From assembly GCA_032622095.1 (NCBI GenBank), contig CP136062.1, forward strand, positions 225,756,578 through 225,820,577: a stretch of 64,000 bases of DNA, read 5' to 3'. The DNA is from Siphonodentalium dalli (taxonomy: Eukaryota > Mollusca > Scaphopoda > Gadilida > Siphonodentaliidae). Positions within the stretch are counted from its first letter, which is position 1. Every line of letters begins with the position of its first letter. Positions 24,903 through 64,000 of this stretch are shown here, in pieces. Both the position numbers and the translations under genes were made by a program. The notes beneath the pieces were generated by a model. That model saw only the letters and a program-made list of their open reading frames with translations. It was not told the origin of the DNA and ran no database searches.

Positions 24903-25002
24903 NNNNNNNNNNNNNNNNNNNNNNNNNNNNNNNNNNNNNNNNNNNNNNNNNNNNNNNNNNNNNNNNNNNNNNNNNNNNNNNNNNNNNNNNNNNNNNNNNN
25001 NN
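24903..25002. other. Assembly gap of exactly 100 N
   Basis: There are 100 consecutive Ns. A round 100 is the usual placeholder for a gap of unknown size, so true satellite length and distance across this point are unknown. Confidence 0.97.
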
Positions 25003-25317: not shown

Positions 25318-25475
25318 TGTGCCAGTGCATTCTCTTATATATATGAGACTCCCATATATAAGATAATTCACCGACTTACAAGGTCAATGTAAATATTGTT
25401 AGGCCAATGCATTATCTTATATATGCGAGGCTCCCTACGGGAGACTCGTATATATGAGACTATATTGGCACAGGG
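25318..25475. mobile_element. Palindromic hairpin MITE, copy A
   Basis: Two hairpin arms, each built from GCCAATGCATTCTC, TTATATATG and a short loop, are separated by a spacer reading TCAATGTAAATATTGTTAGG. The right end reads TTGGCACAGGG. The spacer is the reverse complement of the one in the element at 42902-43078, so the two copies lie in opposite orientation. A third relative lies at 44173-44396. No clear target duplication is seen. There is no coding capacity, so it would be non-autonomous. Confidence 0.75.
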
Positions 25476-26003
25476 TTTTGGAAAATTTCTAGTCGTGTGA
25501 ACTCCATGGTTGATAAAATATACTGCCTAAGCTGTTAATTGTATTAACCATATTGAAGTCTATCATGATACCTTCGGCTATATACCATGATATACAGTAC
25601 GTAAAGAGTGTGCGATAAGCAAAACACTCAACACTCTGGCCATTTTTTTTCTTTGAGAGAGTGATTCGCCGTGACTCAATCATCATCGAAAGCTAGAGTG
25701 GCTGATTAGCGAGTAATCAACATGGTGGTGTTGTAGTTTTATATCGCATCGCATCAAGGGGGGGGGGGGGGTCAACAAAAAATTCAGGCACGTATGCCGA
25801 TTTTTTCCTTTCGACCTTTGTTTGGACACACCCAACCCCGCGTCCAAATTTTTTTCCGTTTTCGGCAGTTTTTTTCCCGACCATTTTTGGACACCCACCC
25901 CCTTTTAACACTGAAACAGATATTTGCGGGGGTGATTCACTGTAAACAGCTGTATATGAATTTCTGTGCATACTATTTGTCATGGATGTTAACATTGACA
26001 TGT
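25476..26003. other. Spacer with a 14-G run
   Basis: No gene is supported. It holds a run of 14 G at 25758-25771. A segment at about 25592-25637 (GATAAGCAAAACACTC core) recurs inverted near 41885-41927, on the other side of the LINE. Confidence 0.5.
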
Positions 26004-27030: not shown

Positions 27031-29160
27031 CTACCCAAGCTTATCTGAATTTATAAGTTTACGATTGATTATTTTAATAAAGTCGCACAATTTCCGTATG
27101 TCTGTTGAATTGTTCTGGTTAAGTATTTCACTCATTGTGATAGTATTTTGTTTTTTGTTAGTAAATTTTGATAGTAATCGCTGTCTTTCGGGTGATAGTC
27201 TCTCGCATTCAAGAAGATAATGAAATTCATCTCCAATCTTTCTGGAGTTACAGAGTGGACATAGTCGGTTAGTTTGTTCAGGTTTTCGCCAGCGTCCTGT
27301 TTCAATAGGTAAATGGTGATTACTGGTTCTAAATTTACATAATGTAATCCGGTTTACTACGTTCAACGTTAGATACCTTTCAAAAGATAAGTCATGTTTA
27401 AAAATTTGGTATATCTTACCACGACTGGAGTTGTTCATATCAGTTTCCCAATTATCCGTGAATTGTGAAATTAAACTACACTTTATATACGAAACGAATT
27501 GGGCAGTATCCGGTATGCGTTCCATGTGCCATGCATGTAATTGGTTACAATGGTCTAATAAATCATAGATTCGGTGTAACAAAGGGAAATGATTAGCGTT
27601 GATATCGAACATAGTCTGTGCTAATTTCAGAAGTATTCTGGGATATCTCACCTCCTCACTGTTCATAATTTTGCACCAATATTTTATTATTCTCGTGTTT
27701 ATATACACGTCAATTGGTAGTCTCCCACATTCCCCATACAGCATAAAGTTGGGAGTAGATGGCCTCAGGTGAAGAATATGCTTCATAAATTTTCGATGAA
27801 CTTTTTCAAGAATATCATTGTTACCGAAACCCCAAATCTCGCAACCATATAATAAAATTGGCATAACGTGCAAGTCGAACAAATCAAGTTGGGTTTTGAT
27901 CGAGAGACAGTGCTTTCGCGAATTGCCAATAACTGAGTACATGGCTTTGGTAGCTTTTTCTGCCAGGGCCTTTTTTGCCGTCGTGAATGATCCAGATTTG
28001 CAAAATATTATTCCTAGGTAATTAAATTTGTTTACTGTTTCGATTCTTCTTCCTTTGAACAGAAATTTTGTCTTTTTTGGAAGACTGGTCTTCGAAAAGT
28101 TGACAATTTTCGTTTTCTCGATATTCACTGTTAATTTCCATTTATTGCAATATTTTTCAAAGAGGTCCAGTTGTTGTTGTAATACTTTTGGGGTTTCCGC
28201 CATGATTGTCGTATCATCGGCGTACATAATCATGAATATTTTCACATAACAGTTGAGTCGATTCTCTATTTCTAGGTCTATTGTTTTTAAACCCACTACG
28301 TCGTTATCAAGTAAATATTCTTGCAAATCGTTCAAGTACAGTGTGAATAGTAGGGGGGATAGGTTCTCACCTTGCCTAACACCAGCATGGCAGGGGAAGT
28401 AAATGGATTTACTTCCCTCTGCTTGAACACAGGATTTAATATGATTATACATGTTGGCAATAACCGTAAATATTTTCCCATTGATCCCATATTTCAAAAT
28501 TTTCATCCAAAGTCCTTGCCTCCACACCATGTCGAATGCCTTTTGGAAGTCAATGAACGCACATAATAATTTCTTGTTTAATTTTCTACTTATTTCAAAT
28601 AATAAATTTAAAATGAAAATGTTGTCGATAGTCGAATAATTTTTCCTGAAACCGGCCTGATTTTCTGATATAACGTCAAAATCGTCAGTGAATTGTCCCA
28701 AACGGTTGGATAAGATCTTAGTAAACAGTTTACCAAAACAACTCAGAAGGGTGATCGGCCTATAATTACTGGGGTCGGTCGGGTCACCCTTGTTTTTGTA
28801 AAGAGGTACAATGGTACCTATCACCCAATCTGCCGGTATTATCCCCGTGTTAAATACTATGTTAAACAATTTGCAGTATATGCCGATGAAAACATCTGAA
28901 GAGGCTTTGATATAGTCATTGAGAATAAGATCATGGCCGCTTGATTTGTTATTTTTGAGACCCTTAATGGCTTGTCTTATTTCCTCTTCGGTGATCGGTC
29001 GGTTCAGGTCGGTATTCGCGTCTACGTTAAATAGTTCAATTATGTCCCGTTCTATTAATGGGTCGTCATCGTGTTTAGTCGCATTGATGTTCTGAAAATA
29101 ATGTGTCAAATCATCGAGAGTAGCATCAATGCGTTGAGAATTTCCGCCCCTAATTTTCTT
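27031..29160 (-). CDS. LINE reverse transcriptase region
   Basis: This stretch of about 710 codons lies after an in-frame UGA (29161-29163). Counting from the TTG at 29109, the RT fingers and palm include SNYRPITLLS, motif A FIDFQKAFDMVW (about 186-196), motif B GVRQGENLSPLLF (about 243-255) and the catalytic MYADDTTIM (YADD at 296-299). A thumb region follows, then a CX2CX9HX4C zinc finger at about 617-635, typical of the C-terminus of this LINE class. It copies LINE RNA at the nicked target. No ATG begins this part; the frame is continuous with the endonuclease region upstream. It is intact except for the preceding stop. Confidence 0.93.
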   Translation of the reverse strand, partial: KKIRGGNSQRIDATLDDLTHYFQNINATKHDDDPLIERDIIELFNVDANTDLNRPITEEEIRQAIKGLKNNKSSGHDLILNDYIKASSDVFIGIYCKLFNIVFNTGIIPADWVIGTIVPLYKNKGDPTDPSNYRPITLLSCFGKLFTKILSNRLGQFTDDFDVISENQAGFRKNYSTIDNIFILNLLFEISRKLNKKLLCAFIDFQKAFDMVWRQGLWMKILKYGINGKIFTVIANMYNHIKSCVQAEGSKSIYFPCHAGVRQGENLSPLLFTLYLNDLQEYLLDNDVVGLKTIDLEIENRLNCYVKIFMIMYADDTTIMAETPKVLQQQLDLFEKYCNKWKLTVNIEKTKIVNFSKTSLPKKTKFLFKGRRIETVNKFNYLGIIFCKSGSFTTAKKALAEKATKAMYSVIGNSRKHCLSIKTQLDLFDLHVMPILLYGCEIWGFGNNDILEKVHRKFMKHILHLRPSTPNFMLYGECGRLPIDVYINTRIIKYWCKIMNSEEVRYPRILLKLAQTMFDINANHFPLLHRIYDLLDHCNQLHAWHMERIPDTAQFVSYIKCSLISQFTDNWETDMNNSSRGKIYQIFKHDLSFERYLTLNVVNRITLCKFRTSNHHLPIETGRWRKPEQTNRLCPLCNSRKIGDEFHYLLECERLSPERQRLLSKFTNKKQNTITMSEILNQNNSTDIRKLCDFIKIINRKLINSDKLG

Positions 29161-32100
29161 TCAGAAATCACGCGGGCTACCGTGTTGTAAAGCTGACATT
29201 TCGCGAGTAATCATATCTCTGTGTGCTCTAATTGATTTGTCCATTTCGCTTTTATAAACGCGAGACGCTTGTTTCATATCTCTATCTGAGGTGGAGTCCC
29301 GGCTTAATTTTTTAGCACGAGAAGCTCTCCGATAAGACTGTCGTGCAATTCGGCACGCTTCATTGAACCATGGTTTATTTTTACCATTTCTACGGTTATT
29401 CGACTGCCTAATTGTCCGTTCAGTGTGTACACCTAAAGTATTTTCTGCCGTTGTTGTCATGACTTTGCTTATGGAGGTGACAATCATATTAATTGCTTCG
29501 GGGCACAACTCGTTCGGCTTGAGTGAATTCAATAAGTGGTGTATGCTGGAAATGGCATTATAATCAATATTTTCAACAAATTCTGGTCGTTTAGAAGGGT
29601 CCCACTTTTTTACGCGGTTCGTTTTGCTGGCAGACGTCGTGTCATTGTCAGTGGGCCACTTACGTGCATATTCAGAATTGAGCGTTGTTACGAGACCGCA
29701 ATGTATATCTGATGCCAATGGGCTAAATTGGAGTACTTGGAAGTCCAATATAGCTGGTAGAGCTGTCGCTAAAGATAATGTATAATCAATTACGGTCTTA
29801 TTTTGACTGGTGAATGCGCCAACGTTTTTGTCTTTACCAGCCCTTCCGTTCAAAATAACAAAACCGTGATGTTGACATAAGTTCAAGAGTGAGATTCCAT
29901 ATTGGTTTCTGTTGTGGTCCTGGTTCTGTCTGGCTATAGGCATATTAGTCATGTGTAAATATATCAATTGTTCTGAAAGTATTTCGTGAAATATATCCGA
30001 TTCGAACATGTCGTTGTCGGTACCATAATTACTAATATCAGTTTCAAGCGATGTACGTGCGTTGAAATCGCCAGTGATGAATATCTTATCTGTGCGGTTC
30101 GCTAAATTTAAGAACTCACTTTCTACTTCTGTAAATGCGTCTTTCGATGCGTAGTTACTACTTTCAGGTGGTATATATACTGCACCTATTATTACATGGA
30201 ATTTACATGAATTTTCTGACCTTTTAATCTCAATCCAATGTACAAACTTGGACGGCGTTTCAATGATTTTCGAAAATCTACAAAGTTCGTCTTTGATGCC
30301 AATGGCTATTCCACCTGACCGTATTCGCGAAAGTTTTTGTCTATTTTTCATAAAAAAGGTATACCCCTTTAAATACAGTTTGTCACAGTCATCGGTTTTT
30401 GTTTCCGATAGACATAAGACATGGTATTTAGAACAAAACTCCTGGAAATCCGGATATTCAAGTCTTTTTCGAAGACCACACACATTTAAGGACAAGATTT
30501 CGAAATTTCCTTCGTTCTTTTCGGAATTGAGGTCTTGTTCGAATGGATATATCTCAGCTACATCAAGATAATTATTTTTACACAAACATGGCGTATCTGT
30601 AATATTAATGTCATCACAATAGTTTTCGTGCAAATATTCATTCATACAATCAATAGTATCGCCCTGATCATAATCAAGTGAGTCATTGTTATGTGATAAA
30701 GAACATTTATTTTCATTGGTGTTATCTACTAATTCTCGTGCGTCTTTTAAAATATCTGATAGGGGTTTAGTCTCTAGCGTTATAATGTGGTCTTTTTTAA
30801 CTACACCACGACGCTCACAGTCCGCTGTGATATGCTCCAAATTGTCATCAAGCGGAGTTAATTGATAGAGATCGGTGTTAGATGTTGTCCCGTAATTCAT
30901 TATTCTATCATGAATATTACAGTACTCATAATCAGTTTCTGACTGCCAATCGCATTCCGATTGATCAAGTGAACAGTCTACCGTGGGTGTGTCTCTGTCA
31001 CTGGGCCATACAGCTTGGGGCACGTGATCAAAACAGTCTACCATGCTTTGTTCATTATGACGCTCGCCCATGCGTTGTTCACAACTACGGTCATAATTAA
31101 AGTGGGATTCGGTAATGCATGTAGTCATGTTCAGGAGATCCGCATATACATTGTCCCTTATGTTCTCAATCGGAACGTCATTAGGAACAAATACACTTTC
31201 TCGAACCTTTCTGCGGACATCCGATAAATCAGTAGATGCATGTGACATAGTAGCAAACTTGTATAACGTACTTGAATCAGTTACAAGATCTGGCGCCAAG
31301 CTATTACTATATGGGTACTGTACTGTACCATTATGTTCGTAAGATGCGATGTCATTACACACGCTAGGATAGGATGAGTTATCATTGTAATTATCAAAAA
31401 CAGCATTTGAACTCACTGTGTGACAAGCACTATCAGTTGTATTGAGTGACAATGACATTGATGCATTTACATGCCCATTGTCAATTAACAATTTGCCGTT
31501 AACTTTATCGGTGTCGCTTTTTGTACAATTTTGTAATTGTAACTTATATGTGTCATGTAAGCTTAACTGAGTGCCGGTGTCCAGCAAATGAGAATCTGAA
31601 TAACGTATTACAGTATCTGTGGCTTTTGGCGCTTTGATACAAACTTCGCCCCTAATGACATTCACATTTACTTGTTTGCTACTACTGTACGTACATTTAC
31701 GCTCAACATCATCATTTTCAACACAACATATATCAGCCAGCTCAATATTGTTACATATACATGTTTCTAAATTAACATTATTTGAAGACATTTCACAAAC
31801 ATTGCCATACATTATCTCCCGTGTTTCTCTCAAAATGTCGTAGGTGCTTAATAAGGGCGATTCAGGTTCGGTAGATTGAGAATAGTCAGAAACATAGGCA
31901 TGAACAATTGGTGCGGACAACTCACTATCGCGATCGCGATATGCGTCTACTTTGCTTGTCTCAGTCGCCTGACGTTTTGTGAGCGATACTCCTACTCCGA
32001 CCATGTGAAATCTCGATCCATTGACAAAACCATTATTTGCAGTTCGGGTATTCAACTGGTCACCGTTACTAGCGCGACATGTCGAGTTCGGACTGACAGC

Positions 32101-32580
32101 GTGATTGCTATTGAGCACGTGATTTCTGTGTACCTGGCCTTCGTTACAACGGGTTGCGGTTGATTGGCTACAGTAACACGGGCAATCATTACGATTCAGC
32201 GGACTCAATGGATTACTAGAAGTCAACATTACATTGAGCGATATTGGTACGGTCGCGTGATGTCTGTCTGGCTCGCCGTCAAAACAATGGTTTTCGGGTT
32301 GTTTTGGATTGACCGGCGCACGTGATATGTCATGAGCTAACGGTACACTGAGCGAAACTGGTGCGGTCAAGTGATGTTTGTCTAGCTCGCCGTCATAACA
32401 ATGGTTTTCGGTTTGTTTTGAATTGACCGATGTACTTGATATTTGCTCGCACACTTGGGGAGATTGCACGGCAATGTTTGCAGAGTTACATGTATAACGT
32501 GTATATCCGAAGACATTAATGTTCTCATATCTAGTGACAATATCTTGAGAACTGATATTATTACACAATTGATTAACAGT
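29161..32580 (-). CDS. LINE endonuclease region with long N-terminal extension
   Basis: An open stretch of about 1139 codons lies between two UGA codons in the same frame. Counting from the TTG at 32568, the endonuclease/exonuclease/phosphatase domain starts near residue 688 (LSLNVCGLRKR) and shows LCLSETKTD, ITGDFNAR (about 832), VIDYTLS and SDIH near 950; these are the metal-binding and catalytic signatures that nick target DNA. The ~690 residues before it are rich in N, S, T, C and D, match nothing I know, and include a tandem repeat (KQTENHCYDGELDKHH, then KQPENHCFDGEPDRHH). The first internal ATG is near codon 116, so initiation is unclear. It ends at UGA, where related LINEs usually have a tryptophan (DFW). 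Confidence 0.88.
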   Translation of the reverse strand, partial: TVNQLCNNISSQDIVTRYENINVFGYTRYTCNSANIAVQSPQVCEQISSTSVNSKQTENHCYDGELDKHHLTAPVSLSVPLAHDISRAPVNPKQPENHCFDGEPDRHHATVPISLNVMLTSSNPLSPLNRNDCPCYCSQSTATRCNEGQVHRNHVLNSNHAVSPNSTCRASNGDQLNTRTANNGFVNGSRFHMVGVGVSLTKRQATETSKVDAYRDRDSELSAPIVHAYVSDYSQSTEPESPLLSTYDILRETREIMYGNVCEMSSNNVNLETCICNNIELADICCVENDDVERKCTYSSSKQVNVNVIRGEVCIKAPKATDTVIRYSDSHLLDTGTQLSLHDTYKLQLQNCTKSDTDKVNGKLLIDNGHVNASMSLSLNTTDSACHTVSSNAVFDNYNDNSSYPSVCNDIASYEHNGTVQYPYSNSLAPDLVTDSSTLYKFATMSHASTDLSDVRRKVRESVFVPNDVPIENIRDNVYADLLNMTTCITESHFNYDRSCEQRMGERHNEQSMVDCFDHVPQAVWPSDRDTPTVDCSLDQSECDWQSETDYEYCNIHDRIMNYGTTSNTDLYQLTPLDDNLEHITADCERRGVVKKDHIITLETKPLSDILKDARELVDNTNENKCSLSHNNDSLDYDQGDTIDCMNEYLHENYCDDINITDTPCLCKNNYLDVAEIYPFEQDLNSEKNEGNFEILSLNVCGLRKRLEYPDFQEFCSKYHVLCLSETKTDDCDKLYLKGYTFFMKNRQKLSRIRSGGIAIGIKDELCRFSKIIETPSKFVHWIEIKRSENSCKFHVIIGAVYIPPESSNYASKDAFTEVESEFLNLANRTDKIFITGDFNARTSLETDISNYGTDNDMFESDIFHEILSEQLIYLHMTNMPIARQNQDHNRNQYGISLLNLCQHHGFVILNGRAGKDKNVGAFTSQNKTVIDYTLSLATALPAILDFQVLQFSPLASDIHCGLVTTLNSEYARKWPTDNDTTSASKTNRVKKWDPSKRPEFVENIDYNAISSIHHLLNSLKPNELCPEAINMIVTSISKVMTTTAENTLGVHTERTIRQSNNRRNGKNKPWFNEACRIARQSYRRASRAKKLSRDSTSDRDMKQASRVYKSEMDKSIRAHRDMITREMSALQHGSPRDF

Positions 32581-33470
32581 TCATGTATTGACTTTCGGCA
32601 TTTTTGGTCCGTCATTGGTGGGCGTGGTACTGTCTCTGGCACGCTTCACTCTGGTATCATCGGTGCATGTGTATTCAGATGCACCAACTAAATACGATAC
32701 TAGTCTTGCTCTGCCATCCTCATTGAAGTGCAGTCCCGAATGGTCCTTCGCGTTATAAAGCGATTTCACTCCATTGCCATCTTTGGAACGGAACATTGCA
32801 TTATCAATGTACTTCAAATAGAATTTCCGCTTACACAGCCTCTCAGTATATTTGTTCACTCGAAGAGCAATCGAATTGTGATCTCTCATCTTAGCACCCA
32901 AGCCTTTCCTAGGTGGAATGCTGCACAAATTAACTGTGGCAAACGGAAACGCCTCGTGTACAGCAGAGGCACCATCACTGACGTCCATTTCAATCAGTTC
33001 CAGATCCGAATGGTTCTCCACTATATCGTTGGTGCCGAGGTGAACTGTTACCTTTTTAACCTCAAATCGGTCGACGCCTGACTTTGCACTGTTGATTAGT
33101 TTCTCCACTTCGGAATATTTAGCCCCTGAATATTGAAACACTTTGATGTCATCCCTGCCCAATTTTAAACCACCGCAATTGCTCGCCCCGAGGACGATGG
33201 CTTTCACTGAACTCTGTTCATCCTCTTTATTTCCATCTACAACTTTCCTGAAATCACCACATTCCATTTCGAGATTTTCATTGGTTTCGTCTGCATCACA
33301 CTTTGTTTCAGTACTACCGTTTATTTCAGCATCATCATTTGTTTCGGCATTAACAACATCATCATCATCGACACCTGTGTTTGCATCATGTGTCTCACTT
33401 CCTCCAGCTTTACCAAAAACATCATCACTTTGGGTTGAATCGCGTGTCACCTCACAGAAATCAATCAGAT
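32581..33470 (-). CDS. LINE ORF1, C-terminal half: SGNH esterase-like domain
   Basis: This is the 3' half of ORF1, cut off from its 5' half by the LTR element. After an acidic, Thr/Asp-rich linker the protein shows esterase blocks: VLGASNCGG (nucleophile Ser region), VTVHLGTNDI (block III, G-x-N-D) and DHSGLHFNEDG (the Asp/His pair of block V). SGNH esterase domains are known in ORF1 of CR1-like LINEs, where they are thought to help the ORF1 particle interact with membranes or lipids. It has no native start; its frame is the same as that of 40677-41634 once the insertion and one target copy are discounted. It ends in UGA, in frame with the endonuclease region. Confidence 0.85.
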
Positions 33471-33475
33471 TAGCT
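33471..33475. repeat. Target site duplication, left copy (TAGCT)
   Basis: TAGCT abuts the 3' LTR here and is repeated at 40677-40681 beside the other LTR. Removing the element plus one copy keeps the LINE ORF1 frame, which supports 5 bp as the true duplication length. Confidence 0.85.
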
Positions 33476-33687
33476 AAAGCAAAACAGGACTATACATTGT
33501 CTATTCAACATGGTTTATTATGCACAAGTCATGGTAAAGTCATATTATACAAGATGTCAGCCAAATAGGTCTTGTTCGGTCGGGATTCAGTTCTGTTCTG
33601 TTCTTCTCGATAGCTGGGAGTGACGTCACATCCTCGGGTGCACTCGTACCGGATAACCGGTACTCTTCGGGACCTAAAACCGCTACA
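33476..33687 (-). repeat. 3' LTR (212 bp)
   Basis: Identical to 40465-40676. On the minus strand it runs from TGTAGCGG to GCTTT. It contains a CRE-type palindrome TGACGTCA, a TATA-like TTGTATAATATG and an AATAAA in GCATAATAAACC that could serve as the poly(A) signal. Confidence 0.93.
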
Positions 33688-34198
33688 TTCCCCCAAGCTT
33701 TGAAAAGAAGGCCCTGTTGGAGGGGGTTGAAGAATTCGTCCATCCATCGTCATTAGTCAGTCCAAGTTCCAACAAGACTTCTGTTACGTCATAGGCCTCC
33801 GTGGGCTCGGTTGCAGAGTCTTGTAGTCGACGCATTGGATCCTGAACATCGGATGACTGACGAACACTTGTAACTTGGTCGAGGAAGGCACCGTCATATG
33901 GATGGCTGGCAGAGTAGAATTTCTCAGCATCTCGTATCATCCAACTACCATTTTCTGTCATATCTGGTAATGTCTTCGCCATTGTATCGGTCAAATGATT
34001 GTCTGGCCCGCTTGTTGACACCGCCCAATGTCTTGGCTCCATTGGGTGACCAGTTAAGTTCTTGATCCGGAACGCATGTCGTAGGTACAGTAAGTTCCTT
34101 CTGTTGAACCGTATAGAGGTGGTCTGCACTATGTATAATCTGGCCAGTGGTGAATAGCTGCTGACATTCACTTCTTGGTCCACTCGACCGATAACCAT
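33683..34198 (-). CDS. Integrase C-terminal remnant (171 aa)
   Basis: An ATG-started frame of 171 codons whose stop lies in the first bases of the 3' LTR. Residues about 15-42 (SPLARLYIVQTTSIRFNRRN and what follows) look like the short beta-strand stretch at the C-terminus of Ty3/Gypsy integrases, usually written as SYxVxTxxGxxxRRNRxHL. The rest is polar and unrecognised and ends SKLGGM at the polypurine tract. The catalytic DDE core is absent. I read it as what is left of pol after its replacement or deletion. Whether it is translated is unknown, since it lies 390 bp beyond the stop of the large ORF. Confidence 0.5.
   Translation of the reverse strand: MVIGRVDQEVNVSSYSPLARLYIVQTTSIRFNRRNLLYLRHAFRIKNLTGHPMEPRHWAVSTSGPDNHLTDTMAKTLPDMTENGSWMIRDAEKFYSASHPYDGAFLDQVTSVRQSSDVQDPMRRLQDSATEPTEAYDVTEVLLELGLTNDDGWTNSSTPSNRAFFSKLGGM
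33688..33694 (-). promoter_or_regulatory. Polypurine tract
   Basis: GGGGGAA on the minus strand lies directly before the TG of the 3' LTR, the expected place of the plus-strand primer of an LTR retroelement. Confidence 0.7.
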
Positions 34199-34588
34199 TG
34201 ACTGGGTTCTGCGTGTTATGCTTCGTGGAATATGTACATCAATGCAGAGTGAAAGAGAAACCGGGGCCCGGCATTCTCAGTACAACATACAAATGGTGGT
34301 TCAATGTCGGTGTAGTATATCAGCTGGCCCGATATCCATTACCGACAACGCAACCACAATGTTGGATTCACTCATTGCTGCATTAACTGTGAACATCATT
34401 TAAACGTTGCGAACAAGCATATGATTACGTTCAGTGAGTCATGGAGGTACATTTCCATACTGGAACCCGCATCATTCTGGCGACAAGTAATGGTCTTAAT
34501 AGTTTGCCATGGGGTCTGATGATACTCTGACCATGGCTGTGGATCTCTTCATTGTAGTTAGTAATAGCGATCCACGTCTGATTCGGAC
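34199..34588 (-). other. Spacer between the orphan ORF and the integrase remnant
   Basis: No convincing gene. An ATG at 34616 overlaps the end of the large ORF and opens a 61-codon frame to 34431, with no recognised similarity. It may be non-coding or decayed pol sequence. Confidence 0.4.
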
Positions 34589-37500
34589 TCACTTGCCACC
34601 AGGATCCCAAGGCCATTGATCTGGAGAGCCTGTTTTATTTCGGAGCCAGGTATGTTTCATTGGATTCTGGCTCTGGTTCTCCCTATATGTTGGTTCGGCA
34701 CTTACAGGTATGAAACCTGAACTTGGTTTGCAGATCCAGGTCGACCTGCTTTCCGAACTGCTCCTAAGTTGAGGCAATTCTGTACCAAAATTTCCATTGC
34801 TGCCAGGCCTCAACTGAACATCTTTCTTCACCCTATTGCTGTCATGGTGCTCATCACGTGGTGGGTGGTGATTCTGGTACGGCTTCTCAGATTGACCATG
34901 TGATATTGGCAGTGCACAGCGACTTTCTTCCGGACTGTCATTACATAACTTATGGTTCGGCTGGTCATGATCATATAGTATTGGTGACAACACATCATTT
35001 GTGGTTACGAGAGGCTCCATATACTGCTCAGGTGATCCATTGTCGAAGAGCATCGCCTTGTTCATATGACCCACATTTTCATCAGAGTCGAAGGAAACTG
35101 GTCTTAGAACTGTTAATACAGCATCTGAGACATTAGCGGGCGACTCCAGAACTGTTTGGACAGCGTCTGAGATGTTAGTGGATGCCGAATCATCATCATA
35201 GGAGCCTGATGTGATTGAATACATGGTCGAGTCAAAGCCAATTTTCTCGAATTCAAGGAAGGATGTATCGCCATCGGATGTCAAAGACTCAAACTGTGTG
35301 AGAAGAGGGATCTGGGCGTCTCTCAGATCGCCTCTGTCTCCACCTGACCATCCTTGCTGCTGAAGCAGAACTGCATCCTCTTCATAATCTATTGAATTCA
35401 GCTCCAGAGAAACGCTATCGTCCCATTCTAGATTGATATCATAGATCGGCGACTCTTCATCTTGTATGTAGCTTGTGTTGGCATCGTGGTTGATATATGT
35501 CTCATCCGGCAATAGTGGTTTATGCTGAACTGCATTTCCTGAATAGAATGCATACTCCTCTGGTGTCAGAAGTTGCATGTCTTCTATTTCAGACTGTACG
35601 TTCAGCAGTTTGTCGGACAAGGTTGTCAGTTCCTGTACCAGTGTCCCTGGTTGTTCATCACTGATAAATGGCCCAGACGCAGAATCATTTACCTCCAATG
35701 ATAAAGCGGGTGTCGGCATAATAGGAAGACTCGTGGTTGTTGGAGCTTCAGTCTTCAACTCAGAGCTGGAAAACATCAAAGTTGTTGGACCAAGAGACTC
35801 GGATCTGGATGTAAACGTTTCTGGCAATGGCGTTATTGGGACCTCAAAATCTCGGAAATCGAGACGGGGAGTATCTTTCTGCACCAAAGAAATCTTGCGA
35901 AACGATTCTTCTAAAGATGATAATCGAACCTCAAAATCTCGGAAATCAAGACGGGGAGGATCTTTCTGCATTGAAGAAGTTTGTCGGGAATCTCTGTCGA
36001 CAGGGAGCTGTGTGACTGTATTGTTGTCAGCTACTTCTTCCCCAACTAATTCAATTGGGCTGCCCTCTACTCTCTTATTTCCATGTGCCGACTTGATGGC
36101 TATTGTTGACGGCCGATTGTTCAGGACTGCCGTTTTGGATGCCATCTTTTCTGATAATTTGCATCGTGGCAACTTCTTGACAAGTAAGCCAGATTGTTTG
36201 GATGCTGGCTGGTTGTAGGCCACTTGCCCTGCCATAGTGTCTTCTGATGTGTTGACCGTTTGATTAGAATGGCGGTATGCAGGAACACTGTCGGTCTCTA
36301 TGGAACTCGTCCATAATGGTTGGTCATGTGCGGCCATTCTGGATGCCATCTTCGTTTTCTCATCTCTGGCTCGCACCAGGTGAACATCCAGGATATTCGC
36401 AGGGATAATCACATCTGCTTCTTCATCAGAATGTAACTCTTCGTCGCTTACCATTTTAGCAAAAGACGATGATACTTTGACCTCAAGATCTGGGTAGTCA
36501 AGACGGGGAGGATCTATCTGCATTGAAGACTTGGACGACATTTCTTCTGAGGGCGATACTGGCACATCATAATCTCGGAAATCGAGACGGGGATGATTTC
36601 TCTGTATCGAAGACTTGGGAGACATCTCTTCTGAGGGCGATACTGGAACCTCAATGTCTCGAGAATCAAGACGGGGAGGATCTCTCTGCGCCGAAGAAGT
36701 TTGTGAGTCGTTATTGTTGTCCGCCATCTCTTCCCTATCTAAATCAATTGGACTGCCCCTGGCCCTTTTCCTCATGGTAGAATCATCATCTTCCCCTTTA
36801 GTATAATTCCTGTATATTTCCTGGAACTTCTCTTGGACTAGACGGACCACGGAATGGGTCTGTCGCCATTCTTCTTGTGCCTTATCTCCACTTTGACGCA
36901 ATCGCCATAGCTTGGTCTTAGCTCCAAAGAAATTCATCGGCTTATCATGTTTACGCAGATTTTTTAAGAAGTACATCATCTCAATATTAGCTAGGTAATA
37001 TTGTACCAGAATAGTTCTCATCTCCGATTCTAGTTCTTTTAGAAAGCAAACTACCTTGTATAGCACTGGATTAGCGATATTTTGGGCATGTTTATACTCA
37101 TCCACAAAGTCCCGCACCTCCTTCCGAAGACAGTCTAACTCTTGCGCCTCTTCTTGAAAACCCGTGCTCTGATCTCCAAACTGGATGTCCAATATCTCTT
37201 GGGCCATTTCATGTCTCCATTCTTTATTCTTTCGCTCACGTCTTGGTCTGTTGTTCGATTCTCTCTTGCCAATGGGTTTCAATGAGGGTGATTCGATGGG
37301 CTTATCACAATAACACAATAACTTGTAGTAGACAAACCGTATTTTGGAATTTATGTCCCTCCACTCTTGTTGTTTCTTATTCCTTAATTGAAGATTTTGC
37401 TTGACTTTGTTCCTTTTGTTCTTGGCTAAGTCCTGGTAACCCATCCGTTGGTCAAATTTGTTTCTAACCTCCCAGAAAATGGTATCAATCTCATTGGCGG

Positions 37501-38008
37501 CTTCGCAAATTCCCGTGAAAGCTTTTGACCTCTCGCGCCGTAGTTTTAGCATGGTGGATTCTACGTTAATTCCACACAAGCCCCTATCAACATAGTCTTG
37601 AATTAACGTCAGCGCTTCGATTGCAAGACTGTCTGAATCTTGTACCTCTTCTATAAAACGCTTATTCTCATCTCCATACACAGTTGTTATTGGTATCTTC
37701 ACGGTTTTGTCGTCTCCCTGTAGCGTCTTTTTGCCATGAGGCTGTTCAAGTCCAGGTGACACTGGCATGTGCACAGCATTGGTCTTGGGCTGTTGACGAC
37801 ACCCAGCCGAATACTCCGGACTATACCGGGGGTTGATGGGATATGGCACACCTGGTGAACAATAACCTGGGGGTCGAGCTGGCCATGAGCTAGACTCGGC
37901 TGATGAGCTACATAAGCTAGACGATGAGCTCCATGAATATGGATGTGGGTTAACGCCATACATGGGAGTTTGGCCTGGTAGGTTGTGACCTTGATTAGCA
38001 CTGGACAT
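34589..38008 (-). CDS. Orphan protein of 1139 aa carried by the LTR element
   Basis: An intact 1139-codon ORF I do not recognise. Start chosen at the ATG at 38008 (A at -3); the frame is open 16 codons further but without an upstream ATG. Residues 1-90 are Ser/Pro/Tyr-rich. Residues 112-234 and 278-400 look like two copies of one helical module: both open GD....F.EE.Q..D.L..E and close with a QxEWR motif. Between and after them are basic patches (RPRRERKNKEWR, about 254-265; MRKRARGSP, 412-420) that could be nuclear signals. Residues 440-730 carry five copies of a PRLDxRDxEV motif, and a GSPI(D/E)L..EE.ADNN block occurs at 418-432 and 649-663. The last 400 residues are acidic and low in complexity. 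No signal peptide, membrane helix, zinc knuckle, protease or polymerase motif is seen. It could be a captured host gene or a diverged structural protein. Confidence 0.8.
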   Translation of the reverse strand: MSSANQGHNLPGQTPMYGVNPHPYSWSSSSSLCSSSAESSSWPARPPGYCSPGVPYPINPRYSPEYSAGCRQQPKTNAVHMPVSPGLEQPHGKKTLQGDDKTVKIPITTVYGDENKRFIEEVQDSDSLAIEALTLIQDYVDRGLCGINVESTMLKLRRERSKAFTGICEAANEIDTIFWEVRNKFDQRMGYQDLAKNKRNKVKQNLQLRNKKQQEWRDINSKIRFVYYKLLCYCDKPIESPSLKPIGKRESNNRPRRERKNKEWRHEMAQEILDIQFGDQSTGFQEEAQELDCLRKEVRDFVDEYKHAQNIANPVLYKVVCFLKELESEMRTILVQYYLANIEMMYFLKNLRKHDKPMNFFGAKTKLWRLRQSGDKAQEEWRQTHSVVRLVQEKFQEIYRNYTKGEDDDSTMRKRARGSPIDLDREEMADNNNDSQTSSAQRDPPRLDSRDIEVPVSPSEEMSPKSSIQRNHPRLDFRDYDVPVSPSEEMSSKSSMQIDPPRLDYPDLEVKVSSSFAKMVSDEELHSDEEADVIIPANILDVHLVRARDEKTKMASRMAAHDQPLWTSSIETDSVPAYRHSNQTVNTSEDTMAGQVAYNQPASKQSGLLVKKLPRCKLSEKMASKTAVLNNRPSTIAIKSAHGNKRVEGSPIELVGEEVADNNTVTQLPVDRDSRQTSSMQKDPPRLDFRDFEVRLSSLEESFRKISLVQKDTPRLDFRDFEVPITPLPETFTSRSESLGPTTLMFSSSELKTEAPTTTSLPIMPTPALSLEVNDSASGPFISDEQPGTLVQELTTLSDKLLNVQSEIEDMQLLTPEEYAFYSGNAVQHKPLLPDETYINHDANTSYIQDEESPIYDINLEWDDSVSLELNSIDYEEDAVLLQQQGWSGGDRGDLRDAQIPLLTQFESLTSDGDTSFLEFEKIGFDSTMYSITSGSYDDDSASTNISDAVQTVLESPANVSDAVLTVLRPVSFDSDENVGHMNKAMLFDNGSPEQYMEPLVTTNDVLSPILYDHDQPNHKLCNDSPEESRCALPISHGQSEKPYQNHHPPRDEHHDSNRVKKDVQLRPGSNGNFGTELPQLRSSSESRSTWICKPSSGFIPVSAEPTYRENQSQNPMKHTWLRNKTGSPDQWPWDPGGK

Positions 38009-40451
38009 CTTAATTGAACCCGCACCTAAATAAATCAGGCGTAACAGGCTTATCAATTATTTATTTCACTCTGACCAATCAAGCGTCACGGTATGTAAAT
38101 ACCCAATTCCAAGCGTTTCAGAGTATGATTGGCAAATCAATTGATTAGTGCACTAGCAATAGTGCAATACTACAAGTGATTTGCCCTCTAAACTTCTGAA
38201 AACTTTGTAGGTACTTTTATATAATCTATCTCAATTTAAATCAATACACAAAGGAAAAAAACAATTGAATATTCCAACAAGCAATCTGAGCAGCTATCTT
38301 ATGAATACATGAGATATAATGCAATTTCAACAGGAATGACTGAACACAAACCGAGGTTCCAAAAAATCATTCCCAGCAAATCTGCATCCGGAAAATACAC
38401 AACAGGGCTCAGAAAACTTAAGCAATATTCCTAGAACAAAAAATAATGGAAATAAATATACCTATTCTGACACACTAAACATGACAATTACTGCACAGAG
38501 AATACATAACTTATACTATTTAATACCAAGCAATTAATTTAATACTGTGCAAATGTGTATCAGAAATTCACAAAAATTAATACATATACATCAGGGTCTC
38601 CAAAGTAAATTTAACTTGTACAGAGAACCTGATCACAGTGACAAAAATATATGAAACAAAAAACCAATTACATTTAGGTTAATCAGCTCTAAAAGTAAAC
38701 ATAACTTATATTGGCAAGCTGATTGCAAAACTACTGGTAGATACTGGTTGAATCGATGTGTATCAATTTAACTACAAGATATAGGCTGGCTTAATCCAGT
38801 CCGTTTCTTATGAAAAGAGTAATCTCCCTGGAAGAACGGCTGGATTATGTAAGAAATTAAGGTATTGAACGGTTATGCCCGCATCAATTTCTAAATTTGA
38901 AGTTGATCATTGAATGAACAAGAAATATAGATTCTGTTAACACAATGAAATATTTTTTTTTTCAGCCAGAGAGTTATGGAAATATAGAACTTAACAGAAG
39001 AAGTTGTATACATGGGAATTATGAACCAATTCAGAAATATATGGAAAATGCCTACTCAAAATACTACAAAAATATAACTTTATCTGATAGGCTACACACA
39101 AATAATTAATTCATTTATCAAAAATAACCACATACAAAATATTAATGAAAAAATATGCATATATCAGATGTGAAATTATTACCCAAATTTGAATTAAACG
39201 AGAAAACTCGCCTTAATTTATCAAGAGATCTGACTCAAATGTCAAAAGAAGTGGAACTCATAGTTTTTATCCAAATTCTAATTAAACGAGACAACTCGCG
39301 TTAGTTCAGGTGGTTAGTTAATCAAAATATCTGATTCAAATGTCACATGGAATGAAACTCATGTGGAGCTGTGTCTTATCCTTGTGGACCGTCCAATACA
39401 AACTCTAATATTTGACATCAGATAGAACAAGAAGTTTCATGCTGATTTTGGCAAGAATTTCCTTTCAGTTGAGTACTGGTTGAGCAGGTTTAATTGATAT
39501 ATATATACTGGAAGCTGTTCAATTTAGTATATGAGCTGTTGAAGTTGATCGAATTACTGTCCAATTTTAACTCTGGATATGTTGATATCTGCATAAGGAT
39601 GAACATGTAATTTTCAGGCTGCTTGGTTATCCATATTCAAATTAAACGAGCGACTCGCGTTAATTTATTAAAATGTCAAGATGATGAAAATCATGTTGAG
39701 TCAACATTGAGAAATGTTGATGTCCAATTTAAACTCAGATGATCTGACATCAAGTTGAACAAGAAATTTCAGGCTGCTTTCAAAGTTTGTCAAGAATTTT
39801 ATTTCAGTTGAATCGTGGTTGAGCTGATATAATGAAAATTGTCCAATTTGTTGGGAACTGCCAAATGTTATATTTTCACCACTGGTATTTCACTGGTATG
39901 GCATCTAAATTGGTTTGATGGGTGGAACAGAACTATTTAGTTGGTTGTGACTTGTATTCATGTCGATTATTGATGAGTTGTGGCATGTTCAAATCAGTTG
40001 GCAGATTGAACTACATTGTGATTGACATTTTGTGTGAAAAATAGGAAAGTTTATCTGACCGTAATTCTGTTGACACTGGGCAGCGAAGTTGTCGATTACA
40101 CTCTCCTCTCTCCCCTGTCTTCAAAAACTGGCCAGCTAGCTGTGGTGAAGAATTGATGTCCGGAGACTGTATTCTACGTGTGGTCTATTTTTAGACCACC
40201 GCGGTGATTTTGAAGCAAACTGACGCACAATTTGCCACAAATGTCGAAATTAGACATTTCAACATGTTGTCAGCAATATCCCTCAGTTAGAATAAGAAGA
40301 ATATATATTCAGCAGCACAAACACACAGTCGAACACTGAATATATAAATATCAGGAACGGAAAAACATGACGAAAATGGCAGAAATTCACAAGTCATTTT
40401 TACGAAAGTTTTTCACATCAAAATAAACTTCTCCGCGTGGATCCGTGGTTA
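38009..40451 (-). other. 2.4-kb leader of the LTR element
   Basis: This is non-coding in all frames. It is AT-rich with imperfect duplicated modules about 333-360 bp apart (for example near 39390-39500 and 39722-39830). Reading the minus strand, GATTTATTTAG followed by GTGCGGG (AG at 38027-38026) looks like a 3' splice site 17 bases before the ORF ATG. A donor-like GAG|GTAACC overlaps the end of the PBS (GT at 40452-40451), so the whole leader could be one intron. This is an inference from two short motifs. Confidence 0.5.
39191..39667. repeat. Three short hairpin repeats in the LTR leader
   Basis: A small palindrome occurs at 39191-39219, 39280-39305 and 39640-39667. Each has AATTAAACGAG, a 2-4 base spacer, then ACTCGCGTTAATT or a close variant. 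The stems AATTAA.CGAG / CTCG.TTAATT can pair. They could be packaging or regulatory structures of the element RNA; no function is known. Confidence 0.6.
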
Positions 40452-40462
40452 CCTCGTCGCCA
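40452..40462 (-). promoter_or_regulatory. Primer binding site, tRNA-Ser type
   Basis: TGGCGACGAGG starts two bases after the 5' LTR on the minus strand. It is complementary to the 3' end CCTCGTCGCCA found in animal tRNA-Ser(GCU), over 11 bases including CCA. Confidence 0.75.
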
Positions 40463-40464
40463 AT

Positions 40465-40676
40465 AAAGCAAAACAGGACTATACATTGTCTATTCAACAT
40501 GGTTTATTATGCACAAGTCATGGTAAAGTCATATTATACAAGATGTCAGCCAAATAGGTCTTGTTCGGTCGGGATTCAGTTCTGTTCTGTTCTTCTCGAT
40601 AGCTGGGAGTGACGTCACATCCTCGGGTGCACTCGTACCGGATAACCGGTACTCTTCGGGACCTAAAACCGCTACA
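40465..40676 (-). repeat. 5' LTR (212 bp)
   Basis: Same sequence and length as 33476-33687. Its first bases create the stop codon that ends the upstream LINE ORF1 fragment. Confidence 0.93.
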
Positions 40677-41634
40677 TAGCTACCGGTACTCTGTTGATTG
40701 GGTCATATTTATGATGTGTGTCTGCACTATATGAGAACATAGATCCTAGCCGTTCACGATTGGTTGTCCAATCATCTCGACGATCAGCGTTCGCGGGTTG
40801 TCTCTGCATGGTGGGCTGACCGTGTATGGGCTGTCGATTTCTACTCACATAATCATCAGTGGTACCGATAGCTGGTTTGTCTGGCGGTCTTTGTATGGGC
40901 TGCCGATTACTGCTCACAACATCATCAGTGGTAGTGTTTACAGTAGTTGGCTTGCCTTTGCATATGGGATCATCTGAGCGGTGTCCAGGGTTGAGACATG
41001 ATTTGCATATCATCTCATTTTCACATTGCCAAGATTTATGTGCACTACTGTAGCACCGCCCACATCTATTTTTGGCTGTACGCTCTTGGTCACATATTGT
41101 TGTCGGGAAATGTAGGTCATTGCAGTATTTACATAAACACATTGTTTTGGAAGAGAACATTTTAATCACGAATTTTCCCATCTTAACTTCACTTGGAATT
41201 TCCTGACAACCACTCTCAGCTATCTGCACATAGCGAACCCCTGTCTGCACATGTGAACCTTGGTATGTCCCTCTCCTGATTGAATTTGGTACCACATTTC
41301 CGTAAGCAGACAGAAATGTAACGATGTGGCCGTCACCGAGTTCGAATGGGACATTCCTTATTGTCACATGTATAGTGCGATTTTCCACGTCATTGGGTCT
41401 GATAAATTCCCTGAACAATTTGAATCCACGTTCAATTAAGAAGTCCTTTGCCTCATATGAATGCAGAGTAATTAAGCATTCTTCATCAGTAACCTGAATG
41501 GCCGCGATATCGTCAGGGTTGACAACCCTCTCCACTCCGCGTAAGACATCTCTGCCATTTAAACGACCAAATTTTTGTCTATCGAATGAAACAGTTCTAT
41601 CTCTGGACAGAGTCATGTCTGGCATGTATTCCAT
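40677..41634 (-). CDS. LINE ORF1, N-terminal half: RRM-like region and zinc knuckles
   Basis: This begins at the ATG at 41634 (an open frame runs further to a GTG at 41661). The first ~160 residues contain paired short beta-like stretches (IAAIQVTDEECLITLHSY; RTIHVTIRNVPFELGDGHIV) that suggest RRM-type RNA-binding folds. Cysteine clusters follow: CKYCNDLHFPTTIC, CGRCYSSAHKSWQC and CKSCLNPGHRSDDPIC, the last two CCHC knuckles. The end is a Gln/Arg/Pro-rich linker. ORF1 proteins of this type bind LINE RNA. The LTR insertion at 40676 truncates it by adding a Met codon and a TAG; the remainder of ORF1 lies at 32581-33470. Confidence 0.82.
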
Positions 41635-41929
41635 TACTAACCTGGATAGTATAGTCCACACATAACAGTTTTAGAAAAATAATCCCGTGTTAATCCATTA
41701 TTTAATCCATTATTTCATATTAATTGAAAAATTCACAGAGGAAAAATACAAACAAACCGCCATTGTTCACGCATGCGCATACCTCCAGGATTTATATTGA
41801 TTCATATAAATCCGCCCCATCCAAGTTAACCGTGCAACACCGCGAAATAAATCACAGTTAATCCTGCCCCCCCCCCACCACCCCCAGTGTAGAGTGTTTT
41901 GCTTATCGTACACTCGTTATCTACTGTAC
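41635..41929 (-). other. Probable 5' untranslated region of the LINE
   Basis: Sequence upstream of ORF1 on the minus strand with no coding region. Its 5' limit may lie near the C-rich block at 41868-41886. A segment at 41885-41927 is an inverted copy of 25592-25637. Confidence 0.4.
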
Positions 41930-42901: not shown

Positions 42902-43078
42902 CCCTGTGCCATGCATTCCCTGATATATGCAAGTCTCCCTAATGGAGCCTCGCATATATGTACGAGAATGCATTGGCCTAACAATATTTACATTGAGCTT
43001 GTAAGCCAGTGCATTCTCTTATCTATTTGAGTATTCCTATTTGATACTCGAATATATAAGAGAATACACTGACACGGG
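42902..43078. mobile_element. Palindromic hairpin MITE, copy B
   Basis: It starts CCCTGTGCCATGCATT, has a first hairpin with CTCGCATATATG, a spacer CCTAACAATATTTACATTGA, then a second hairpin with GCCAGTGCATTCTCTTATC, and ends CACTGACACGGG. It belongs to the same family as 25318-25475 (inverted relative to it) and 44173-44396. Confidence 0.75.
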
Positions 43079-44016: not shown

Positions 44017-44419
44017 TTAACCCTTTACCCAACAAACCGGCCAAAAACCGGTCAAAAACGGCCAAAAACGGCCAAATAAAGCTGCAACAGACTAAATTAT
44101 CTTGGGTCTGTCTCAATAAAACCATACAAATTGGAACCGGCTCATTGACCACATTGTGATGGTTACAGTTATGCCCTGTGCCAATGCATTCTCTTATATA
44201 TGCGAGTCGACCATAGGTCGCCTCGCATATATAAGAGAATGCATTGGCCTAACAAAAAACTTTTTACCATTTTGTCTTACATTCTTTAACAATTTTATCA
44301 TTTTTAATATGTGTTAAGCCAATGCATTCTCTTATATATGCGAGGTGACCTATGGTCGACTCGCATATATATTAAGAGAATGCATTGGCACAGGGCCGTT
44401 CTGTTGGGTAAAGGGTTAA
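44017..44419. mobile_element. piggyBac-like MITE with TTAA target duplication
   Basis: A 395-bp element (44021-44415) lies between two TTAA tetranucleotides (44017-44020 and 44416-44419). The inverted ends read CCCTTTACCCAACAAACCGG on the left and CCCTTTACCCAACAGAACGG on the right, reverse-complemented. TTAA duplication with CCC-starting ends is typical of piggyBac. It has no transposase. Most of its interior is the hairpin structure at 44173-44396. Confidence 0.85.
44173..44396. mobile_element. Palindromic hairpin element, copy C, inside the piggyBac-like MITE
   Basis: The left arm (44173-44248) and right arm (44318-44396) are reverse complements of each other, and each arm is itself a hairpin built from GCCAATGCATTCTCTTATAT and its complement around GTCGACCATAGGTCGCC. 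A 69-bp AT-rich spacer separates them. The ends GCCCTGTGCC / GGCACAGGGC match copies A and B. Confidence 0.85.
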
Positions 44420-50835: not shown

Positions 50836-50963
50836 ATTAAATTTGACGACGTGCATAGTCCAAATGTTGGATTAAATCGGACGAATGGGTGAATGTTCTA
50901 TAAACGCCCAAAAATATTTACGTGTTTACAGAGAGACGTTTGAGTTTTTTACTGACTGAGATA

Positions 50964-51974
50964 TAGATCATGCCATGAATCTCTACTCTATAGCTTATGC
51001 CCGTAGAGATCATATACCACCAGTACAAAACCTGGGAACTTTGACATGGAACTGTATAACATCGAACAAACAGGACAGGGAATACTTGTTCCTCAATAAT
51101 TTGCGTTGTAGTAGGGAGTGGTCGCATCTCGATATTGCATGATTTGTTTACTTTTGTGAACATTGAATTAATTACCCGGGGGAAATTGCCACGATTGCAA
51201 CCGATGCACAGCAAAGTCGCTCATAAAGTCAACTAAACCATGTAATTTCAAGCTGGGATCTTCAACTACAGTGAAATACATTATTAAGGAACAAATAATT
51301 ACTGAGAAATATATTACCTGCACTATTCTATCAATATTATAAACTTACCCTATATATCACAACATCAAAAAGTTCCCAGATTTTATCATGTTGGATAGAT
51401 CATGCCATGAATATCTACTATGGCTAACGCCCGTAGAGATTATATTCCACCAGTACAAAACCTGGGAACTTTTTGAAGTTTTGGCAGTCGAAAACATAAC
51501 GCGGGGAATATATTTTTCAGTTATTATTTATTCCTTAATAATGCACTTCATTATAGATAAAGGTCGACCCCAGCTCGAAATTTCAAGATTTAAGTGACTT
51601 TATGAACGATTTTGCTTTGCGTTGCTAACAATTGTCGAATTTCTCCTGGGCAAATTATGTCAATGTTATAGCGATATCGTCTCACAAAAGTCACAGAAAG
51701 GCATGCAACTTCGAGTTGGGAACTTCATCGACAGTGAAGTACATTATTAAGGAACAGATAATAACTAAGAAATATATTCCCCGCGTTATGTTTTCGACTT
51801 TATAAGGTATAACCTGTCAAAACTTCAAAACGTTGCCAGGCTTTGTACTGGTCGATTACGATCTATATATATATATACGCGCGTTAGCCAGAGTAGAGAT
51901 TCATGGCATGATCTACATGTTGGAGTGTGATCTTTATGGGTGTAACCTCGACTAGAGATTCATGGCACGATCTA
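50964..51974. mobile_element. Outer foldback element (older), interrupted
   Basis: The ends TAGATCATGCCATGAATCTC (50964) and its inverted form ending GGCACGATCTA (51974) bound two long inverted arms. The right arm is split by the inner element 51396-51915 and resumes afterwards. Candidate 9-bp target copies ACTGAGATA and ACAGAGATG match at 7 of 9, consistent with age. No transposase is present. It ends 48 bp before a BPI-like exon. Confidence 0.75.
51396..51915. mobile_element. Inner foldback element (younger) with 9-bp target duplication
   Basis: A 520-bp element with arms of about 230 bp each (51396-51640 and 51685-51915), same family as the outer one, flanked by perfect CATGTTGGA copies (51387-51395 and 51916-51924). 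The 9-bp duplication and long inverted arms fit Mutator-like or FB-type non-autonomous elements. Confidence 0.85.
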
Positions 51975-63100: not shown

Positions 63101-64000
63101 CTAATGACACACACCCACTACATTCATTAACGACCAGAGCGCCGTATCCTGTAATAACACACACCCACTACATTCATTAACGACCACATCGCCGTATCCT
63201 CTAATACCACGTCCTCTACATTCATTAACGACCACAGCGCCGTATCCTCTAATAACACACACCCACTACATTCATTAACGACCACTGCGCCGCATCCTTT
63301 AATAACACACACCCACTACATTCATTAACGACAACAGTGCCGTATCCTCTAATGACACACACCCTCTACATTCATTAACGACCACAGCGCCGTATCCTCT
63401 AATGACACACACCCACTACATTCATTAACGACCACAGCGCCGTATCCTCTAATGACACACACCCACTACATTCATTAACGACCACAGTGTCGTATCCTCT
63501 AATAACACACCCACTACATTCATTAACGACCACAGCGCCGTATCCTCTAATAACACACACCCACTACATTCATTAACGACCACAGAGCCGTATCCTCTAA
63601 TAACACACACCCACTAGCGCCGTATCCTCTAATAACACACACCCACTACATTCATTAACGACCACAGTACCGCATCCTCTAATAACACCCACCCTCTACA
63701 TTCATTAACGACCACAGCACCGTATCCTCTAATAACACACACCCACTACATGCATTAACGACCACAGCGCCGTATCCCTCAATAACACACACCCACTACA
63801 TTCATTAACGGCCACAGCGCGGTTTCCCTCAATAACACACACCCACTACATTCATTAACGACCACAGCGCCGTATCCTCTATTAACACACACCCACTACA
63901 TGCATTAACGACTACAGTGTCGTATCCTCTAATGACACAAACCCACTACATTCATTAACGACCACAGCGCCGTATCATCTAATGACACACACCCACTACA
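57137..64000. repeat. 50-bp satellite/minisatellite array
   Basis: About 137 head-to-tail copies of a 50-bp unit: ACATTCATTAACGACCACAG, CGCCGTATCCTCTAATAACA, CACACCCACT. Variants include AATGACAC, CACAGTACCGCATCC and CGGCCACAGCGCGGTTTCCC. Eight or so units are 32 bp long and lack the 18 bases between CCCACTA and GCGCC. Frames on the minus strand stay open for 60-70 codons only because of the repeat composition. The array continues past the window end. Confidence 0.97.
60301..64000. repeat. Higher-order copies within the 50-bp array
   Basis: The CGGCCACAGCGCGG variant unit recurs at 60586, 61952, 62932 and 63810 (intervals 1366, 980 and 878). The ACGCCCACTAGCGCC short unit recurs at 60301 and 61717. 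Blocks of units were therefore duplicated with internal losses, more recently than the first 3 kb of the array. Confidence 0.85.

Follow-up and report, generated by a model that had tools for sequence, protein, structure and literature searches.

Can a non-autonomous long terminal repeat (LTR) retrotransposon carry a large gene of its own in an animal genome? Such elements are commonly viewed as empty shells, and the question is raised by a locus in the scaphopod mollusc Siphonodentalium dalli. We analysed a stretch of 64,000 nucleotides, called the window below (GenBank assembly GCA_032622095.1, contig CP136062.1, positions 225,756,578 to 225,820,577 of the forward strand), to which all coordinates in this work refer. 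On its minus strand, at 33476-40676, lies an LTR element of ~7.2 kb, inserted into a long interspersed element (LINE) of the same orientation. Between the LTRs stands an intact open reading frame (ORF) of 1139 codons, for which we found no relative and which we call the orphan ORF. In our assessment, these features are best accounted for, with a probability of about 0.72, by a young, non-autonomous LTR retrotransposon that carries a 1139-residue ORF in place of gag-pol and is mobilised in trans.

Structure and Age of the Insertion

By its cis-acting structure, the element is a genuine LTR retrotransposon. An earlier reading of the same DNA from its letters alone, referred to here as the original prediction, had described identical 212-bp LTRs, a target-site duplication, a primer-binding site (PBS), and a polypurine tract (PPT), and all of these are present (Table 1). 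The two LTRs agree at 212 of 212 positions and lie within a 214-nt identical block. Zero differences among 212 sites correspond, by arithmetic, to a divergence of at most ~1.4% (95% upper bound), and because the LTRs are identical, the insertion is considered young.

The target-site duplication is 5 bp long. When the flanks of the element are joined with one copy of the duplication, a single LINE frame of 627 residues results, in which a zinc-knuckle-like half and an esterase half are fused; when lengths of 0, 3, 4, 6, or 7 bp are assumed instead, the LINE frame across the junction comprises at most 331 residues. Among the lengths tried, only 5 bp thus restores the frame of the invaded LINE.

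The PBS begins two bases past the 5′ LTR and is complementary to the 3′ end of tRNA-Ser(GCT) at 11 of 11 nt, the comparison being with a published primer rather than with the host’s own tRNA. The tRNA-Ser(GCT) primer as printed in PMC9072684 opens with the identical 11 nt. At the other end of the interior, the PPT, GGGGGAA, abuts the 3′ LTR. Each LTR contains a perfect cAMP response element (CRE), followed by TATAA and, 30 bp beyond, by AATAAA, a layout that would fit a compact U3-R-U5 organization.

The Orphan Reading Frame and Its Protein

The orphan ORF runs from an ATG without interruption, as had been claimed, and when the element was shuffled 400 times with its dinucleotides preserved, no ORF as long arose; the longest shuffled ATG ORF reached 172 codons. 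Its codon preferences correlate moderately (0.53) with those of the LINE ORFs. In the encoded protein, 57 of the first 100 residues are Ser, Pro, Gly, Asn, Gln, or Thr, and a single PPxY motif occurs at residue 46.

This N-terminal region is followed by a helical module that is present twice. Residues 101-265 and 266-440 give a local alignment score of 86, against 66 for the best of 2000 shuffles. When cut out, modules A and B align at 32% identity, and BLASTP with the two module pieces and with composition correction off yields an E of 1e-6. A BLASTP comparison of the whole protein with itself returned the full-length row only and missed even the short repeats described below; it is therefore uninformative, and the module duplication rests on the shuffle test. 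For module B, the predicted structure consists of three long helices with a mean predicted local distance difference test (pLDDT) score of 71.8, a model that has only two sequences behind it and in which the fold is not firm. Because the predicted module can be aligned with many different helical bundles of solved structure, its fold is also generic.

Residues 401-1000 contain five copies of a repeat of ~28 aa. When this part is divided into six blocks of 100 residues, acidic residues outnumber basic ones in five of them, while block 601-700 is slightly basic. The start-to-start distances between the repeat copies (87, 552, 84, and 84) are all divisible by three, which would fit duplication while the sequence was coding, although such spacing is no test of selection. 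No membrane segment was detected in the protein, whose highest 19-residue Kyte-Doolittle mean is 0.92, and neither hydropathy nor Pfam revealed the membrane anchor or fusion-protein similarity of an envelope (env)-like ORF of the TelKA2n type.

Absence of Detectable Gag and Pol

Neither the orphan ORF nor a second ORF of 171 aa, located near the 3′ LTR, matched any gag or pol family in Pfam at E up to 1. No such family was found when the leader and the 3′ region were read in their three sense frames (with stops as X) or in their antisense frames, or in the longest antisense ORF; across the stretch of the main ORF, Pfam coverage of the other frames consisted of a 213-aa antisense ORF. Pieces spanning residues 109-1139 of the orphan protein, searched at E up to 10, gave three weak unrelated matches only, the best at E 0.016. 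As a positive control, the LINE endonuclease was recognised and the LINE esterase fell just below the cut-off. The orphan protein also has neither a CCHC knuckle nor a protease-type D[S/T]G motif. The set of proteins expected of an autonomous element (gag, protease, reverse transcriptase (RT), RNase H, and integrase) was thus not found in the Pfam scans.

These results agree, as far as Pfam reaches, with the original prediction that RT and gag are missing; the profile search for standard gag-pol in the main ORF, which had been proposed as a check, was run and matched none. Since the cis-acting ends are intact and gag and pol are undetectable, the element appears non-autonomous, as had been proposed, and moved by the proteins of another element.

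The 171-aa ORF is unlikely to owe its length to chance: of 2000 shuffled versions of the 3′ region, one contained an ORF of that length. It had been taken for a remnant resembling the C-terminus of an integrase. Searches of Pfam, NCBIfam, and PHROGs found nothing. The single match among PDB sequences, PutA at E 0.11, is unrelated, and in a directed search of proteins none of 13 candidates scored. The likeness goes back to a motif, and the claim finds no support in these searches. A placement in Ty3/Gypsy (Metaviridae) would be judged by RT phylogeny and the gene order PR-RT-RH-IN, and the element contains no RT. A tRNA-Ser primer is associated with Mag-like Ty3/Gypsy elements, although the type of primer does not define a clade; a Ty3/Gypsy helper is plausible.

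Relatives and Selection

The orphan ORF was compared with 5.8 billion proteins by means of query words from its first 500 residues only, and none of 4444 candidates matched at E up to 10. Because a search of the same protein set with the neighbouring LINE RT returned 3536 relatives, mollusc retroelements included, the negative result carries weight as regards widespread genes, but little as regards close relatives. There was no match in Pfam or PDB sequences and nothing above the cut-off in NCBIfam and PHROGs, while none of 4 pattern matches in viral_contigs and none of 15 in prokaryote genome contigs was confirmed as a close relative. A cellular or viral source gene was thus found neither in the protein set nor in the viral and prokaryote contigs. 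The proposal of a captured or newly built gene stands as the best reading of the ORF; the source gene that a capture implies did not emerge.

Patterns joining LTR and PBS, patterns joining PPT and LTR, and the LTR pattern had no match in viral_contigs, nor had the LTR pattern in genome_contigs; these negatives say little because the two collections hold viral and prokaryote records. Six loci in viral_contigs that matched a tRNA-Ser-type PBS pattern were scanned in three frames for five RT catalytic motifs (YxDD). They contained no LTR-like 18-mer repeat and none of these five motifs and were rejected as, probably, chance matches.

The intact frame had also been taken to suggest selection. Among the internal repeats, pooled omega was 0.73 in frame versus 0.83 and 0.77 in the shifted frames, as calculated from pairwise differences between five 31-codon windows around the repeat, of which neighbouring ones overlap by two or three codons. 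The closeness of these values gives no sign of constraint within the orphan protein, so the suggestion of selection is unsupported. An intact frame does not need selection either, because it is sufficiently explained by the youth of the insertion, indicated by the identical LTRs.

The Leader and a Possible Intron

The ORF is preceded by a leader of 2456 nt that is poorer in ORFs than expected by chance; the longest comprises 40 aa, a length reached by 1943 of 2000 shuffles. A candidate intron can be drawn from a donor at 40452, GAG/GTAACC, to an acceptor at 38025, TTATTTAG/GTGCGG (slashes mark the junctions). The donor overlaps the PBS and ranks 2nd of 161 by rough splice matrices. The best-fit block of low GC content covers 40054-38027. 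Support for its end extends over sense positions 2478-2698, spanning both the ATG and the TTATTTAG/GT junction at 38025, while its start is poorly placed (support 120-943, sense). From these features, we hypothesise that the leader may be spliced; a plain shift from non-coding to coding DNA explains its composition equally well. At 39176-39833, the leader also contains degenerate direct repeats with units of 39-49 nt, together with a ~105-nt pair of 75% identity whose members lie ~335 bp apart.

Proposed Mechanism and Points Against It

If the element is indeed a non-autonomous carrier of the orphan ORF, host RNA polymerase II would transcribe it from LTR to LTR. The proteins of an intact relative located elsewhere in the genome would package its RNA, reverse-transcribe it from a tRNA-Ser primer, and integrate the product with a 5-bp stagger. 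The 1139-residue protein would be translated from the same transcript, perhaps once the AT-rich leader has been spliced out; removal of the leader is proposed because its 36 upstream ATGs would otherwise obstruct translation. The ORF may have been gained by capture, with a switch of template to an mRNA of cellular or viral origin, or may have grown by internal duplication, in either case displacing gag-pol. With its duplicated helical module, its long, mostly acidic tail, and no membrane segment, the protein is most likely an intracellular binding or assembly factor, or a mere passenger.

Several points weigh against this reading. No second copy, partner element, or source gene has come to light in searches that did not extend to the host’s own genome. 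A single copy cannot prove that the LTRs and the ORF move together, and repeats without constraint give no support to a functional protein. The set of 5.8 billion proteins did not return the orphan ORF itself, and the best relatives of the LINE RT in it are 48-49% identical; the host’s own genome and closely related genomes seem to be absent from this set, where copies in the same species would be invisible. As for splicing, the acceptor at 38025 ranks a middling 23rd of 133 and a stronger one lies at 38827, by the same rough matrices, and the low-GC block begins 0.4 kb past the donor, though its support range includes the donor.

Alternative Explanations

One alternative is a one-off transduction, in which a gene of the host or of a virus was acquired by a single copy of an ordinary LTR element while it was being reverse-transcribed, so that the ORF would be a passenger and not a trait of a family. 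This explanation is nested in the one preferred here, and the probabilities of the two overlap. It agrees with the single copy known and with the lack of a selection signal. However, a captured conserved host gene should have turned up, and neither the 5.8 billion proteins nor the viral and prokaryote contigs provided a confirmed cellular or viral relative. We judge a transduction of this kind to be possible but doubtful. A bolder proposal, which we consider unlikely, is that a family of animal LTR elements has shed gag and pol and has evolved a new protein, whose building blocks are duplicated helical modules and repeats and which is expressed from an LTR transcript after splicing. Rather than being payload, this protein would help the element to be packaged in competition with its helper, or would activate the CRE-bearing LTR, so that the helper is outcompeted. 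If this were true, one parasite would be exploiting another by means of a gene dedicated to the purpose.

In another alternative, which we consider improbable, the ORF would be a gag gene that has diverged to an extreme degree or been rebuilt, and the 171-aa ORF would be what wear has left of the end of pol. The locus would then be a gag-only non-autonomous element of a well-known type. The ORF does occupy the gag position behind a leader, the beginning of its protein is helical with a duplicated module, and the PPxY motif would suit a gag protein. However, Pfam gag families were matched neither by the complete ORF (E up to 1) nor by pieces covering residues 109-1139 (E up to 10), the CCHC knuckle is missing, and 1139 aa is long for a gag, most of this length being repeat-bearing and acidic. 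Retroviral capsids consist of many short helices, unlike the three long ones of the model for module B, which, being built from two sequences, is not firm.

It is also rather improbable that the element was once more complete, with this ORF as an additional, third one, and lost gag and pol afterwards. Such an ORF could be envelope-like or could encode a regulator acting on the CRE of the LTR, and the rotifer element TelKA2n offers a precedent; the perfect CRE and the long, mostly acidic tail of the protein are in line with it. Against it stand the lack of a hydrophobic anchor segment, with a Kyte-Doolittle maximum of 0.92 over 19 residues, and the position of the ORF before, not after, the possible pol remnant, while the regulator idea lacks direct evidence. 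Finally, an assembly artefact, with the LTRs as a duplicated stretch, is hardly credible: although the LTRs are identical and the window’s sole run of N (100 bases, 24903-25002) lies 8.5 kb from the element, the 5-bp duplication, the 627-residue LINE ORF restored on removal of the element, and the exact placement of PBS and PPT at the edges of the LTRs speak against it.

The Invaded LINE and the Surrounding Window

The features of the element and of the LINE ORF that it interrupts are collected in Table 1.

Table 1. Positions of the features of the LTR element and of the interrupted LINE ORF1 in the window.
Feature	Coordinates	Strand	Remarks
5-bp target-site duplication, 5′ side	40677..40681	.	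Only 5 bp restores the LINE frame
5′ LTR, 212 bp, TGTAGC...TGCTTT	40465..40676	-	CRE TGACGTCA 40617-40610, TATAA 40538, AATAAA 40508
Primer-binding site TGGCGACGAGG	40452..40462	-	Complementary to the tRNA-Ser(GCT) 3′ end
AT-rich non-coding leader	38009..40464	-	34% GC, 36 upstream ATGs
Orphan ORF, 1139 codons	34589..38008	-	
Helical module A, residues 109-241	37286..37684	-	Local alignment score versus shuffles
Helical module B, residues 270-405 (predicted)	36794..37201	-	Local alignment and structure prediction, pLDDT 71.8
~28-aa repeat around PRLD, three copies, residues 429-515	36464..36724	-	
Same ~28-aa PRLD repeat, two more copies, residues 669-728	35825..36004	-	
171-aa ORF, before and across the PPT, frame of the main ORF	33683..34198	-	
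Polypurine tract GGGGGAA	33688..33694	-	
3′ LTR, 212 bp, identical to the 5′ LTR	33476..33687	-	
5-bp target-site duplication, 3′ side	33471..33475	.	
Invaded LINE ORF1, upstream half, cysteine-rich, zinc-knuckle-like	40672..41661	-	zf-CCHC_3 E 0.5, weak; last bases enter the LTR
Invaded LINE ORF1, downstream half, GDSL-esterase-like	32581..33450	-	E 4.9e-7, just under the curated cut-off

The invaded LINE spans 27031-41661. Its ORF1 combines the zinc-knuckle-like and GDSL-esterase-like parts, and in its second ORF ~690 aa precede the endonuclease match. The endonuclease part (ending at 29161) and the RT part (starting at 29109) lie in one frame, with at least one stop between them. The few named records among the 120 listed of the 3536 relatives of this RT include Mercenaria and Patella. 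Others among the 120 are filed in bins labelled Sedimenticola and Thiodiazotropha, bacteria living in lucinid clams, and these sequences are probably host DNA.

Nested transposable elements fill the window between satellite arrays at both its ends. The array at 1-24902 has a 56-bp unit in ~446 copies with 95% matches, and in that at 57137-64000 the unit is 50 bp long, with variants of 82 and 132 bp. Short palindromic repeats with arms like GCCAATGCATTCTCTTATATATGCGAG occur at 44173-44396, 42902-43078, and 25384-25489 and probably represent one family of fold-back elements. A long imperfect inverted repeat extends over 50961-51918; between 51396 and 51915, the sequence agrees at 72% with its own reverse complement, and further related stretches adjoin the repeat.

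Comparison with Known Systems

Replacement of coding sequence between LTRs is known in several forms. In defective transducing retroviruses, gag-pol is replaced by other coding DNA and a helper is needed, and gene-capturing LTR elements exist in plants. The scaphopod element likewise has other coding DNA between its LTRs, in its case DNA for which no cellular source gene was found.

The passages on TelKA2n of bdelloid rotifers in PMC5408684 describe an element that has kept an env-like ORF and lost most of pol, with this type of ORF traced to paramyxovirus fusion proteins. In contrast to the env-like ORF described there, the orphan ORF encodes no membrane segment. In large retrotransposon derivatives (LARDs), as characterized in the relevant part of PMC6431247, other DNA between the LTRs replaces much of the coding sequence and the elements are moved in trans. 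As far as that description goes, both the substitution of the element’s own coding sequence and the mobilisation in trans resemble what is proposed here. In general, LARDs have non-coding internal DNA and are not known to contain a long ORF, whereas the scaphopod element has an intact one of 1139 codons, which sets it apart from them.

Non-autonomous LTR elements with mollusc genomes among their hosts are also on record, namely the terminal-repeat retrotransposons in miniature (TRIMs) of bivalves and Helenus (in the sections concerned of PMC6934838 and PMC10886601). TRIMs are given there as shorter than 1 kb and as encoding no proteins for mobilisation, in contrast to the 7.2 kb and the large ORF of the present element. 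Additional ORFs are described for Retand elements, some of which are non-autonomous themselves (in the text concerned of PMC11963269), and for Vesta and Juno of bdelloids (in that of PMC5408684). The likeness to these elements lies in extra ORFs of unknown role; according to the same accounts, their ORFs mostly add to gag-pol, usually after pol, whereas here all detectable gag-pol is gone.

Among leading titles and abstract openings of the open-licence literature, no animal LTR element in which an orphan gene replaces gag-pol was described. Thus, non-autonomous LTR elements, LARDs, additional ORFs, and TelKA2n are already known, and what is unusual in the scaphopod element is that all detectable gag-pol has given way to a large, intact orphan gene that is not of the envelope type. 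With all cis-acting signals kept, such a combination would represent either a natural instance, in an animal, of genes transported between LTRs or a selfish element that has its own protein.

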